Origin: a virus
Length of the DNA: 24,661 nt
Direction: 5' to 3' (one strand)
Virus record (IMG/VR): IMGVR_UViG_3300042524_000063
Coordinates: 1 to 24,661 of that record
Below are positions 9,479 through 24,541 of the stretch, one piece after another (the first letter of the stretch is position 1; the number at the start of each line of letters is the position of its first letter). The notes below the pieces were generated by a model. The model saw only the letters and a list, made by a program, of their open reading frames with translations. It was not told the DNA's origin and ran no database searches. The position numbers and the translations under genes are program-made.

Positions 9479-9915
9479 ATCCATTCGCATCAATAGGAAA
9501 ATACCTTGTCAAGCAAAAAGAAGATAAAGCACTTGCTTTTCTTTGCAGTGATAAAATAGGACAAAAAGTGTCCAAAGATGACATTGAAATCATCGACAAA
9601 AATCACTATGCTTCAATTGATCCAAACAAATCTTTCTACTATTATGACGGTCCGCTTGATGACAAAACAAGGGACTTTTGTGCAACCTTATTGCTTCAGG
9701 GGAAATTCTATTCACAAAAAGAAATTGACTATCTATCAAGCCGTTTGGGGTACAACGTGGACTTGTATATGGGTTCATACAACTGCCGCCATCAATGGAA
9801 GCGTGCAAGAATAAAAGGGAAAATTCAAGACGGAACACTTGATGAAAATTTGATTGCAACAAATTCAGATGCAAACAAAGCCATCAAAGAACAGCCAGCA
9901 AATTTAAGGGGTTAG
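9475..9915 (+). CDS. Minor head (SPP1 gp7 / Mu gpF-like) morphogenesis protein
   Basis: A 146-residue protein carrying the signature of phage head morphogenesis proteins: DDKTRDFCATLL (residues about 61-72) followed after about 35 residues by GSYNCRHQWKRAR (about 100-112). The spaced Cys and the NCRH motif mark the conserved C-terminal part of the family. Full-length members are usually 250 residues or more, so this is a short version lacking the N-terminal portal-contacting region. Members bind the portal and are carried in the head. Here it lies 5 kb upstream of the portal gene rather than next to it. Its last 12 bases overlap, tail to tail, the minus-strand endonuclease gene. Confidence 0.65.
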   Translation: MNPFASIGKYLVKQKEDKALAFLCSDKIGQKVSKDDIEIIDKNHYASIDPNKSFYYYDGPLDDKTRDFCATLLLQGKFYSQKEIDYLSSRLGYNVDLYMGSYNCRHQWKRARIKGKIQDGTLDENLIATNSDANKAIKEQPANLRG

Positions 9916-10431
9916 TCGGGACTTTATTCTATTTTGGTTTCCAAGTTTTGACAACCTCATTTTCTCTCTTGTTTGTTCGCTTATCGGTTTTCTAAGTTTT
10001 GCCTTTGCACTTAATTTCGCTTTGGTTTCTTCTGAATGAGGTTTGTGTATTCTTTTTAAAAGAGAAGGTTTAGGTTTCCATCCCTCTGGATGATTATCTT
10101 GAGCTCGTCTTCTTGCTTCCGGCCAAGGCTTCCCTTTTAAAGTTGTTCCTCCACTTACTGCTTTTAAGCTAACATTATACCAAGGAGTTAATAAGTCAAT
10201 CCAGTATTGTTCTTTAATCATCATTGCATCTTCAGAACACAACTCAACTATTGAATATACAAAAGCATCAACTCCATACTTATTAAAACCATTTTGTAAT
10301 TTTTTTGAGTGGTGGGTTTGTAGCCTTAAAGAACTTTTGTGTTGCACCCATCTACGATTAATGTCTTTTGCAGAACCAATGTAAATTTTATTATTTACAA
10401 TATTCTTAATTAAATAAATTCCTGATTCCAT
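9904..10431 (-). CDS. GIY-YIG homing endonuclease with NUMOD3-type tail
   Basis: A 175-residue protein. The GIY-YIG catalytic domain occupies residues about 3-90: GIY at 4-6, YIG at 17-19, Arg at 26-27, the metal-binding Glu at 74 (MIKEQYW) and a conserved Asn at 86. After it come short basic repeats typical of NUMOD3 DNA-binding modules (HSEETKAKLS near 131 and SEQTREKMRLSKLGN near 150). Such enzymes cut a specific site and spread the gene by repair. It is free-standing, on the minus strand, last in the minus island. Its ATG follows a variant of the late element by one base, so it may be expressed late. Confidence 0.9.
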   Translation of the reverse strand: MESGIYLIKNIVNNKIYIGSAKDINRRWVQHKSSLRLQTHHSKKLQNGFNKYGVDAFVYSIVELCSEDAMMIKEQYWIDLLTPWYNVSLKAVSGGTTLKGKPWPEARRRAQDNHPEGWKPKPSLLKRIHKPHSEETKAKLSAKAKLRKPISEQTREKMRLSKLGNQNRIKSRLTP

Positions 10432-16256: not shown

Positions 16257-16823
16257 ATGGCAAATGATAAGGTTTTATATTTTCATATCAATCCATTAAG
16301 GAATGAAATATTTTATGTTGGTATTGGTAGTAAAGCAAGAGCTTATAGCAAGGATAGCAGAAATAGATTTTGGAAATTTTTAGTTTCTAAATACGGATTT
16401 ATTGTAAATATAGTTGCTGAAAATCTTAGCATAGAACAAGCAAAACAATTAGAAATAAACTACATTAAAAAAATCGGCAGAAGAAATTTAAACAAGGGAA
16501 CTCTTGTCAATTTAGCTGATGGTGGGGAAGGCAGAAATGGAGCAAAAGATAGCGATGAATCAAAACAAAAAAAGAGTGACTATTGGTTTAAACATTATGC
16601 AGAACCAAAGAATAGAGAGCGACTAAAAGGAAGGGTTTATTCAAAAGAAGTAAATCTAAAAAAAGGGAAAATTGGAGGGGATAATAATACAGCAAGAAAA
16701 ATTACTTATAAAGGAACTGAATATAGTTGTGTTAAATCTTTGTGGAGAGAGCAATTTAAAGAGGTTATGAGTTATTCAAACTTTGTTTTATCAACAAGGA
16801 AAAATAAAATAAATTTAATATAA
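16257..16823 (+). CDS. Second GIY-YIG-type homing endonuclease
   Basis: A 188-residue protein of the phage GIY-YIG-like subfamily: VLYFHI (6-11) and IFYVGIG (18-24), Arg28, the spaced helix ending in Glu66 (AKQLEINYIKKIGRR) and GTLVNLADGGEG (81-92). The C-terminal part is basic, and KITYKGTEYSCVKSLWRE looks like a NUMOD1-type DNA-binding module. It follows the portal stop with only one base between and is followed closely by the connector gene, so it seems inserted between two structural genes without breaking either. Its Leu and Arg codons are TTA, AGA and AGG-rich, unlike the portal gene, which fits recent acquisition. Confidence 0.8.
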   Translation: MANDKVLYFHINPLRNEIFYVGIGSKARAYSKDSRNRFWKFLVSKYGFIVNIVAENLSIEQAKQLEINYIKKIGRRNLNKGTLVNLADGGEGRNGAKDSDESKQKKSDYWFKHYAEPKNRERLKGRVYSKEVNLKKGKIGGDNNTARKITYKGTEYSCVKSLWREQFKEVMSYSNFVLSTRKNKINLI

Positions 16824-23262: not shown

Positions 23263-23277
23263 ACTAAACAAACAAGA
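23263..23277 (+). repeat. Leader repeat copy 1 (ACTAAACAAACAAGA)
   Basis: ACTAAACAAACAAGA, just before ATG 23280. The same 15 bases recur at 24522-24536, and all but the first two recur at 23542-23554. It is an A-rich leader without Shine-Dalgarno and may be a conserved translation leader or a preferred recombination point. Confidence 0.7.
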
Positions 23278-23279
23278 AA

Positions 23280-23558
23280 ATGAAAAGCAAAGAAGAAATA
23301 GAACAGTTAGCTGATAACTTTTACCCACTTGTAACAACAGATTTAATATGTTCTCCTAAATTAGTTAGAGATGGTTATTTTAAAGGCTACACTCAATGCC
23401 AAGAAGATATGGCTAAGAAATATACAGAGGAGGATGTTATACATCTTATGTTTAATGCTTCAAATTGGGATACATTTAAAGAAGGGGAAGTTGGATATGA
23501 TATGTCTTTAAGTGAGTACATACAACATTGCTTACAAAAATTAAACAAACAAGACTAA
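23280..23558 (+). CDS. Hypothetical early protein (92 aa)
   Basis: The product starts MKSKEEIEQLADNFYP and has a middle GYFKGYTQCQEDMAKKYTEE (about 35-54) of a type I associate with small proteins of Flavobacterium phages; it ends LNKQD. The last codons are encoded by the leader repeat (copy 2), so the gene's end is part of the direct repeat that flanks the cassette block. No function is recognised. Length and acidic character fit a small soluble protein. Confidence 0.65.
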   Translation: MKSKEEIEQLADNFYPLVTTDLICSPKLVRDGYFKGYTQCQEDMAKKYTEEDVIHLMFNASNWDTFKEGEVGYDMSLSEYIQHCLQKLNKQD

Positions 23559-23559
23559 T
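23542..23559 (+). repeat. 18-bp direct repeat, left copy
   Basis: TAAACAAACAAGACTAAT, identical to 24524-24541 and 982 bases from it. This copy spans the stop codon of the preceding gene and has ATG two bases on. The pair brackets the cassette-like block. Confidence 0.85.
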
Positions 23560-23570
23560 ATGAAAAGCTT

Positions 23571-23665
23571 GCCACTAACGGACGAGGCTAAGAGCAGTTG
23601 CCTAAAATACTGCTCAAAATTTGCACTACGCTTGATGGCAATTGCTTTTAGCCTTTGTTAGTGGC
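23571..23665 (+). repeat. attC-like hairpin 1
   Basis: Outer box GCCACTAAC (23571-23579) pairs perfectly with GTTAGTGGC (23657-23665). Unpaired spacers follow (GGACG on the left, TT on the right). The inner arms AGGCTAAGAGCAGTTGCC (23585-23602) and 23637-23654 then pair over 18 positions, two of them G-T. The loop is 34 bases. Outer box, asymmetric spacer and inner stem are the architecture of an integron attC site. The ends match the consensus (YAAC...GTTR) only in part. No T-tract follows. Confidence 0.6.
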
Positions 23666-23689
23666 TGGTGCGGTAAATTAAACGAGATT

Positions 23690-23914
23690 ATGTCAGAACA
23701 CGCAAAATCGGCTATGTTAGATAACATTAAGCAAAACCTAATTGAAATGATGGCAGACTATTTAGATAGTGAAAGCCTGATACTTGACCAAGCAATTGCA
23801 TTGGTAAAAGACCCGATACCGAGAGAAGAAAGTGAGTTGCATATACGAATGGCAGAAGCCGCCTTTCTTGAATATCAGAAAACTGTTGTTGATGCAAACG
23901 GAAGTAGCACTTGA
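23690..23914 (+). CDS. Cassette gene 1, hypothetical protein (74 aa)
   Basis: I choose ATG 23690 (MSEHAKSAMLDNIKQNL), 24 bases after hairpin 1; the frame is open upstream through the hairpin's right arm, which is unlikely to be coding. The product is acidic and helical: NLIEMMADYLDSESLILDQAI, then LHIRMAEAAFLEYQKTVVDA. No domain is recognised. It is the only gene between hairpins 1 and 2, and its stop (TGA at 23912-23914) lies at the edge of hairpin 2. Given its neighbour it could also act against host defences, but nothing in its sequence shows that. Confidence 0.6.
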   Translation: MSEHAKSAMLDNIKQNLIEMMADYLDSESLILDQAIALVKDPIPREESELHIRMAEAAFLEYQKTVVDANGSST

Positions 23915-24001
23915 TACTAACGTTTTGCAGCTAATAGAAGGCTGTAATTACACTAAAATATATGAGCGGTTAACTCAGCTTTTTATTAGGTGCTGTTATA
24001 A
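23915..24001 (+). repeat. attC-like hairpin 2
   Basis: Inner arms GCAGCTAATAGAAGGCTG (23927-23944) and CAGCTTTTTATTAGGTGC (23976-23993) pair at 17 of 18 positions, two of them G-T, with a 31-base loop. Outside lie TACTAAC (23915-23921) with a 5-base spacer (GTTTT), and GTTATAA (23995-24001) after one base. Only four outer bases pair here. The left box ACTAAC instead complements the GTTAGT of hairpin 1, as expected when the region between is one excisable cassette. Confidence 0.6.
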
Positions 24002-24052
24002 CTAGTAGGGATGTTTGCTGAATGTTTTTTTAAGACACAAAATAAATAAATA

Positions 24053-24060
24053 TAGCTTTG
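24053..24060 (+). promoter_or_regulatory. Possible -7 box of a cassette promoter
   Basis: TAGCTTTG matches the Bacteroidota TAnnTTTG box, with a T-run (24025-24031) about 21 bases upstream instead of a clear TTG. It lies 27 bases before ATG 24088. The promoter is weak or speculative; a cassette with its own promoter would be unusual but fits an anti-defence gene. Confidence 0.35.
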
Positions 24061-24087
24061 GACGAGCTTTGTAAAATCCGATAAAAT

Positions 24088-24423
24088 ATGAATACAGAAC
24101 AAACAAGAAGTTTAACTTTTGGATTAGCTATTGAGGCTTTAAAAAGTGGAAAAATGATTGCTAGAGAAGGATGGAATGGAAAAGGATTATTTGTTTTTAT
24201 GCAAGTTCCTTCAACTATCAATAAGGAAATTGTACCTAAAATGCAGAGTTTACCACAAAGCGTAAAGGATGAATTTCAAAGAAGATTTGATGATGCAAGT
24301 GAGCAAATAGATGCTATTTATTATAGTAATCAAATGGCTTTAGTTGGAAAATCAAATACTATTAGTGGATGGTCGCCATCATCATCAGACACATTAGCAG
24401 ATGATTGGTTTATTTTAGGATAA
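24088..24423 (+). CDS. tad2: Tad2-like anti-defence protein (DUF2829)
   Basis: A 111-residue protein with both halves of the DUF2829/Tad2 pattern: FGLAIEALKSGKMIAREGWN (11-30) then GKGLFVFM (31-38), and after a variable insertion (about 41-79) NQMALVGKSNTISGW (81-95) and DTLADDWFIL (101-110). Characterised Tad2 proteins bind glycocyclic ADP-ribose signals and so block the Thoeris defence; some members are reported to bind CBASS cyclic nucleotides. The insertion is where members differ and may affect ligand choice. The gene sits alone between attC-like hairpin 2 and junction 3. Family call is firm, ligand is unknown. Confidence 0.88.
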   Translation: MNTEQTRSLTFGLAIEALKSGKMIAREGWNGKGLFVFMQVPSTINKEIVPKMQSLPQSVKDEFQRRFDDASEQIDAIYYSNQMALVGKSNTISGWSPSSSDTLADDWFILG

Positions 24424-24433
24424 AAAACATAGA

Positions 24434-24472
24434 GCAGTAGGTAAACAGAATATTACTGACAATGCCTACTGC
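24434..24472 (+). repeat. Hairpin after the Tad2-like gene
   Basis: Perfect 8-base arms GCAGTAGG (24434-24441) and CCTACTGC (24465-24472) with a 23-base loop that may hold a small inner stem (CAG/CTG). No T-tract follows, so it is not a clear terminator. It opens the third junction of the cassette block. Confidence 0.6.
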
Positions 24473-24475
24473 CCT

Positions 24476-24491
24476 ATTAGTTATAACTAAT
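24476..24491 (+). repeat. 16-bp perfect palindrome ATTAGTTATAACTAAT
   Basis: A perfect 16-base palindrome without spacer. Its core GTTATAACTA also occurs at the right end of hairpin 2 (23995-24004). It may be a junction box of the cassette array or a protein-binding site. Confidence 0.75.
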
Positions 24492-24498
24492 GGCTAAC

Positions 24499-24513
24499 CG
24501 CCATAACGTGGCG
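24499..24513 (+). repeat. Small hairpin CGCCA-TAACG-TGGCG
   Basis: Perfect 5-base arms around TAACG, 10 bases before the right leader repeat. It completes the structured 116-base gap 24424-24539. Confidence 0.5.
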
Positions 24514-24523
24514 CATATACAAC

Positions 24524-24541
24524 TAAACAAACAAGACTAAT
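24524..24541 (+). repeat. 18-bp direct repeat, right copy
   Basis: TAAACAAACAAGACTAAT, identical to the left copy. It runs into ATG 24540 of the glycosyltransferase gene. The 15-base ACTAAACAAACAAGA form at 24522-24536 also matches leader copy 1 exactly. Confidence 0.85.

Follow-up and report, generated by a model that had tools for sequence, protein, structure and literature searches.

A two-gene block in a phage genome fragment as a probable cassette array of an integron-like system with a Xer-like recombinase

A short block at the right end of a phage genome fragment is, very probably, a two-cassette array belonging to a phage-borne, integron-like system that uses a Xer-like tyrosine recombinase. 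The evidence consists of hairpin homology, the association of such hairpins with a recombinase, an attI-like fixed site, covariation between arms, and module breakpoints in related phages. Homology makes the cassette nature of the block almost certain, and we consider it highly likely that the associated Xer-like recombinase moves such cassettes through folded strands. The original prediction was that integron-like cassettes had entered a phage. One-gene cassettes with attC-like hairpins are indeed present, but the recombinase found with their relatives is not IntI and falls in a Xer-like clade. The classical picture of an integron cassette likewise held in part: these are cassettes, but the hairpin appears to travel with its downstream gene, in the reverse of the classical order.

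The block, its genes and its hairpins

The window, meaning the whole 24,661-base stretch that was analysed, covers positions 1 to 24,661 of the virus record IMGVR_UViG_3300042524_000063 in IMG/VR, on one strand. It is a fragment of a tailed-phage genome with a portal protein, a virion structural protein, the NinG and ERF families and DUF6291, and its right end holds a block of two small genes and two long hairpins (Table 1). ORFs resembling GIY-YIG homing endonucleases lie between structural genes at 9904-10431 (-) and 16257-16823 (+), the latter with zero Pfam matches.

Table 1. Features of the block at the right end of the window, with the basis of each assignment.
Feature	Position	Strand	Structure or basis
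Gene-start leader, left copy of the 18-bp repeat	23542..23559	+	Exact copies in 18 other phage loci
Hairpin 1, attC-like	23574..23662	+	ACTAAC - 5 nt - long stem - 2 nt - GTTAGT
Putative cassette A (hairpin 1 and unit-1 gene)	23579..23920	+	Cut AA^C at both left boxes; left-box breakpoints of related arrays; window borders by analogy
Unit-1 gene, 74 aa	23690..23914	+	Homologue cassette-borne in L054, ordinary gene in other phages
Hairpin 2, attC-like	23916..24000	+	ACTAAC - GTTTT - GCAGCTAATAG...TTATTAGGTGC - T - GTTATA
Putative cassette B (hairpin 2 and Tad2-like gene)	23921..24486	+	As cassette A; block ends 15/16 complementary, conserved G.T at position 8
Start arm of gene block 2, GTTATAACTAGTAGGG	23995..24010	+	94% complementary to 24472-24487
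Tad2-like (Thoeris anti-defence 2) gene, 111 aa	24088..24423	+	PF11195
Stem-loop GCAGTAGG...CCTACTGC directly after the Tad2-like stop	24433..24472	+	Fold z -4; no R1 match
End arm of gene block 2, CCCTATTAGTTATAAC, which is what junction 3 actually contains	24472..24487	+	Arm complementarity
Possible relic of an attI-like docking site, TAAC followed by TAATGGCTAACCGCCATAAC...	24485..24513	+	Suggested by similarity to the L013 site
Gene-start leader, right copy of the 18-bp repeat	24524..24541	+	Ahead of the ATG at 24540

One unit carries a likely anti-defence gene, as had been proposed. The unit-2 product matched the Tad2-like domain PF11195 (E=5.5e-19; 68.9 bits against a cut-off of 25), and on the strength of this domain it likely has an anti-defence (anti-Thoeris) role. 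The unit-1 protein matched no Pfam or PHROGs family, and searches for its relatives returned zero among named phages and zero on plasmids. A relative in phage contig L054 is 60% identical and flanked by hairpins of like design. Just inside its boxes the L054 block has the same sequences as unit 1 (GTTAnnGGCTGGTGCGG at the start and GGAAGTAGCACTTG...TAAC at the end), and its neighbours differ from those in the window. The gene family also occurs without hairpins, in phage loci L053 and L056. In another phage (L051/L052, 4300-5260), three copies of a repeated element, AACTAATGTATAGCCG...GATAGGGTACGGCT, surround small genes, one of which is fused to a unit-1 homologue; this is possibly another cassette-like repeat. 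Upstream of 5001 in L027, a cassette-like tail (AGTAGCACTTGCTGGTAAC) that resembles the unit-1 tail stands ahead of a homologue of gene 23280.

Both hairpins have the outer boxes, 5-nt left spacer and long inner stem first described for them, with right spacers of 2 and 1 nt, so that AAC...GTT boxes enclosing a hairpin, as in attC sites, are present in the window. The box relations were found as written, namely ACTAAC with GTTAGT, and GTTATAAC as the right box of hairpin 2 that recurs in junction 3. A hairpin finder (TAAC, 4-6 nt, stem, 0-3 nt, GTTA) run on both strands of the window returned exactly hairpins 1 and 2, with scores of 15.0 and 12.5, and a single match of 12 or more arose in 400 dinucleotide shuffles of the entire window. 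The folding energy suggested as a check was strong for hairpin 1 (z -4.3) and weak for hairpin 2 (z -1.3). Because folding energy alone is weak for hairpin 2, the case for the hairpins rests on homology. A covariance model (R1) built from 20 hairpins, all from other phages and with the window left out, matched hairpin 2 with 73 bits (E=1.9e-15) and hairpin 1 with 40.6 bits (E=1.1e-7), and had zero other matches in the window up to E=5.

Hairpin 2 has a twin (96.3% identity over 81 nt) in the 76-kb phage L152, which itself encodes a recombinase; there the twin precedes a different gene, and hairpins may therefore also be exchanged without their genes. Relatives of hairpin 1 are 82% identical in L057 and 78% in L149. 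When such hairpins were described by a degenerate DNA pattern, TAACGTTTTGCRGCT...GCTGTTATA, it matched 53 stretches of viral contigs, among which the stems vary greatly and the ends are conserved. The hairpins have not simply strayed into one phage, since they occur in dozens of viral contigs, many of which also have a recombinase and a docking site of their own. Hairpins were present in 6 of 60 phage loci picked via another window gene, and the arrays are therefore patchy. When one hairpin was searched against named phages, zero relatives were found.

An exact 18-bp direct repeat, TAAACAAACAAGACTAAT, had been thought to bracket the block. The repeat is real and exact, but it is a gene-start leader and no part of the element. 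Its core, AAACAAACAA[AG], is followed by ATG in 39 of 42 cases and is probably a translation signal in this phage group. We rejected the repeat as a target-site duplication, as transposon ends and as an insertion mark because it is such a common leader. Copies of AAACAAACAA[AG] lie at 23266-23283, 23543-23560 and 24525-24541 in the window, and ahead of start codons in loci L003-L045.

Junction 3 does fold unlike the two hairpins; it is a cassette end, and we rejected it as a third attC, given that R1 had no match there up to E=5. Its segment CCCTATTAGTTATAAC is the complement of the unit-2 start GTTATAACTAGTAGGG at 15 of 16 positions, with a mismatch, G.T at position 8, that is conserved across the family. 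An apparent inverted-repeat element around the Tad2-like gene was also rejected, as it amounts to these complementary arms of gene block 2. The stem-loop after the Tad2-like stop lies outside the attC-like family and is perhaps a terminator. Positions 24475-24534 are 75% identical over 60 nt to the TAACTAATATATTACCGC site and leader ahead of the gene 23280 homologue in L013, a similarity that makes the docking-site relic listed in Table 1 possible.

Recombinase and fixed site beside related arrays

The window was correctly said to lack an integrase, as no recombinase was found in its 24.7 kb. A tyrosine recombinase is present in 6 of 50 hairpin-bearing viral records, representing three lineages. 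Each of the six is encoded on the strand of its hairpins and 1-2 kb downstream of them, even where the contig is as long as 76 or 310 kb. The other 44 records have no recombinase; many are fragments, and several are of 59-108 kb. A reciprocal search by recombinase alone gave 80 viral loci. With near-copies removed, the recombinase strand had 142 hairpins in 225 kb of upstream sequence and 2 in 321 kb of downstream sequence, and the opposite strand had 4; the covariance model placed 60 of 60 matches upstream on the recombinase strand in 40 loci, counts that are not fully independent because the loci are related. Local-composition shuffles produced zero hairpins. No array adjoins the integrases of Polaribacter phage Leef_1, Cellulophaga phage Ingeline or a Leptospira phage.

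The recombinase is about 270 aa long, with a SAM-like N-terminal domain and a catalytic domain, and the catalytic residues R, K, H, R, H and Y are invariant in 26 of 26 phage recombinases. Integron integrases are defined by an additional, IntI-specific domain (PMC9668308). The gap between RxxSE and HxLRH measures 80-86 aa in the phage recombinases versus 127 in IntI, and this domain is therefore missing. The phage recombinases scored 157-165 bits with TIGR02249 against its cut-off of 265, and formed a clade apart from IntI in a phylogenetic tree (support 98/95). Their best NCBIfam match was the XerA-type NF040815, at 198 and 179 bits, under its cut-off of 220. XerA-type proteins are the nearest solved relatives by sequence, and XerA and IntI4 gave the best fold matches to an AlphaFold2 model (pLDDT 90.5). 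The catalytic residues and the missing IntI insertion together fit the Xer family, and judged by sequence the associated recombinase is a member of a Xer-like clade without that insertion. Xer recombinases act on one dif site, resolving chromosomes, or integrate elements that mimic dif. Unlike its relatives in this family (archaeal XerA, XerC/XerD, XerH), the phage enzyme adjoins arrays of hairpin cassettes.

A fixed site, ATTGCnnnTAAC followed by TAnTATATGTA, lies ahead of the recombinase in 61 of 79 loci, usually at a distance of 53-57 nt from its ATG. To the left of its TAAC the sequence varies with the last cassette, and to the right lies constant backbone. Where phages have 98.8-100% of the recombinase region in common, their sequences part exactly at this TAAC, and their arrays differ in spite of the near-identical recombinase regions. 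Read on the other strand the site is TACATAnTAG^TTA, like an integron attI. An attI-like site beside the recombinase is thus a feature of the related phages, and the window has at most its possible relic.

Cassette borders, polarity and proposed mechanism

The expectation that a site ends in bases of the neighbouring unit was borne out by covariation. The right box of one hairpin and the left box of the next form the two ends of a gene block and vary together as complements. Their match at positions 2-6 beyond GTT/AAC is 0.82-0.92; position 8 has the conserved G.T, and pairing continues past it. Across 140 distinct pairs, the observed total was reached in 0 of 2000 permutations. The two boxes of a single hairpin match each other at the random level. 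One box of each site is thus contributed by the neighbouring cassette, as in integrons, and the genuine IntI array L132 has like block-end complementarity over 12-16 bases. Since the covariation reaches across an entire gene, the two ends would have to meet, as in a circular cassette.

Modules shared between phages began within 6 nt of the left box in 34 cases versus 3 for the right box, and six alignments end at the right box. Where homologous blocks had one changed neighbour, it was the downstream hairpin that differed and the upstream one that was retained in all 3 pairs, and never the reverse. These breakpoints and the retained upstream hairpins place the cut at TAA^C, to the left of each hairpin. 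In the proposed comparison of related phages, modules break mainly at the left box. No close relative turned up in which the site is empty, and the one close relative of the neighbouring gene ends before the locus. A cassette would accordingly seem to consist of a hairpin and its downstream gene, the reverse of a classical cassette, and we hold this polarity to be probable on counts that are one-sided but small. Each block has one sense ORF, but the hairpin precedes its gene, whereas an integron cassette usually has one promoterless gene and then its attC. The spacers are mirrored as well, at 5 nt left and 1-2 nt right in the phages versus 2 and 6 in L132. In reverse complement, a phage locus presents recombinase, attI and array as in an integron, with the genes turned round inside the cassettes.

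The mechanism that we infer from these patterns involves single-strand folding, a defined cut, the recombinase, and circular intermediates. Each cassette would be a folding hairpin followed by one gene. The Xer-like tyrosine recombinase, which many relatives encode by a fixed attI-like site, would act on a circular cassette as a folded single strand, cut at TAA^C (G^TTA in the complementary strand) and link the cassette either with the fixed site or with a further hairpin. In the circular cassette, complementary outer arms would lengthen the stem of the hairpin and so turn it into a good substrate, whereas in the array each arm would face a foreign partner. Turning the genes round relative to IntI integrons would allow array and recombinase to be read in one direction. 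Given the lack of a recombinase in 24.7 kb, the cassettes in the window presumably owe their position to an enzyme that acted in trans or is encoded beyond the fragment.

A narrower form of this explanation holds that the cassettes are dead relics here, put in place in the distant past by a since-lost recombinase and moved afterwards only by homologous recombination between phages. The missing recombinase, in the window as in 44 of 50 hairpin-bearing records, is in keeping with such decay, as is the drifted arm before hairpin 2 (ATACTAAC versus the expected CCACTAAC). However, neither hairpin 2 nor the block 2 arms have decayed, the arms keeping their 15/16 complementarity and conserved mismatch, and we regard the narrower form as possible but rather unlikely.

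Relation to known systems and cargo

The reading of the block as part of a phage-borne system with a Xer-like recombinase has to be weighed against the capture, by a phage, of ordinary IntI-type cassettes from its Bacteroidota host. Genuine IntI array L132 follows the same box and block-end logic, and IntI is common in the phylum, exceeding the cut-off in 84 of 296 genomes. Yet the hairpins adjoin a different recombinase, which differs from IntI in its 80-86 aa gap and its 157-165 bits, and the cassettes are reversed relative to their genes. Moreover, the phage-hairpin model had zero matches in twelve true IntI loci (216 kb), including the clear cassette array of L132. No IntI integrase is involved as far as these loci go, given that the window has no recombinase and the enzyme of related phages lacks the insertion and scores below the TIGR02249 cut-off. 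Capture of IntI cassettes is thus very unlikely and largely refuted. The original prediction had also staked itself on related hairpins near an integron integrase; their absence there counts against IntI, but not against cassettes, because the hairpins adjoin another recombinase.

Like IntI integrons (class 1, chromosomal, and CALINs without integrase), the phage system has an array of single-gene cassettes, hairpins with AAC/GTT boxes, a fixed site by a tyrosine recombinase (G^TTA, one strand), and site ends contributed by the neighbouring cassette. Unlike them, it is phage-borne, its recombinase is not IntI and is without the extra domain, its hairpins have a long inner stem, a 5/1-2 nt spacer asymmetry and the conserved outer-arm G.T, and its genes point the other way in the cassettes.

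Related recombinases occur at E<=1e-75 in 71 of 395 Bacteroidota genomes, with Labilibaculum as the centre genome. Around twelve of them (loci L269-L280), the covariance model found 32 hairpins in 193 kb, and the gene blocks have the same arm pattern of 7 pairs, a mismatch and 4 pairs. These arrays, with A2-like recombinases, thus resemble the phage system in recombinase, hairpin model and arms. Unlike in the phage system, their hairpins are opposite to the recombinase strand in nearly all loci, their genes are larger, and in L273, the one locus mapped in detail, the hairpins are opposite to the genes in the classical gene-then-site order. We know of no name for these arrays and found no paper on them. 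One bacterial recombinase falls inside the phage clade and is perhaps that of a prophage. The exact phage-type hairpin pattern was absent from 395 Bacteroidota genomes, a result that is uninformative at the rate seen in viral contigs. The 84 of 296 Bacteroidota species genomes with an integron integrase above the TIGR02249 cut-off (loci L110-L129) are far above the published picture for Bacteroidetes, in which IntegronFinder 2.0 reportedly recovered very few integrons.

Least probable of all, and hard to maintain, is the notion that the hairpins are RNA elements of a phage operon (5' leaders, terminators or processing sites) without DNA mobility: they do lie in gaps between co-directional genes, directly before start codons, and a stem-loop also follows the Tad2-like gene, but an Rfam search returned no family and a single chance miRNA match, complementarity links the ends of gene blocks hundreds of bases apart rather than the sides of one hairpin, modules ending at the boxes are common to different contexts, and the hairpins are strictly tied to the recombinase and its fixed site.

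The cargo of related arrays was considered in 207 blocks, of which 186 contain an ORF, with the longest ORF antisense in 8 and a median block coverage of 0.82. About 15 of 100 cassette protein clusters are DNA methyltransferases; a TET-associated glycosyltransferase, an RNA ligase, a radical SAM protein and a GNAT protein account for one cluster each, and most of the 100 are without a known family. Together with the Tad2 of the window, the methyltransferases make the cargo look like a counter-defence repertoire, the swapping of which would be the benefit of the system. The unit-2 gene belongs to the Tad2 family (PF11195) but differs in being carried here as a putative exchangeable cassette. 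Bacterial cassettes also often hold methylation genes (PMC8618304). A search of a library of open-access papers found no phage integron and no non-IntI cassette system of Bacteroidota.

Taken together, the block appears to represent an apparently undescribed integron-like system that collects counter-defence genes in phages of Bacteroidota. More tentatively, we lean towards the existence, in Bacteroidota and the phages that infect them, of another lineage of cassette systems with folded hairpins that is independent of IntI. Its phage branch would have reversed the cassettes for operon reading and would keep counter-defence genes, DNA methyltransferases and Tad2 among them, as an exchangeable store, the cassettes being common to unrelated phages, including those without a recombinase.

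Integrons are bacterial (and archaeal) gene-capture platforms driven by IntI. If our reading is correct, phages run a parallel system with another recombinase, gathering anti-defence genes cassette by cassette, which would explain the spread of such genes between unrelated phages. The recognisable cassette borders would provide a handle for finding new counter-defence genes, most of the 100 families being unassigned. Finally, the existence of chromosomal relatives points to an origin, or a diversification, of folded-site recombination outside the IntI lineage.
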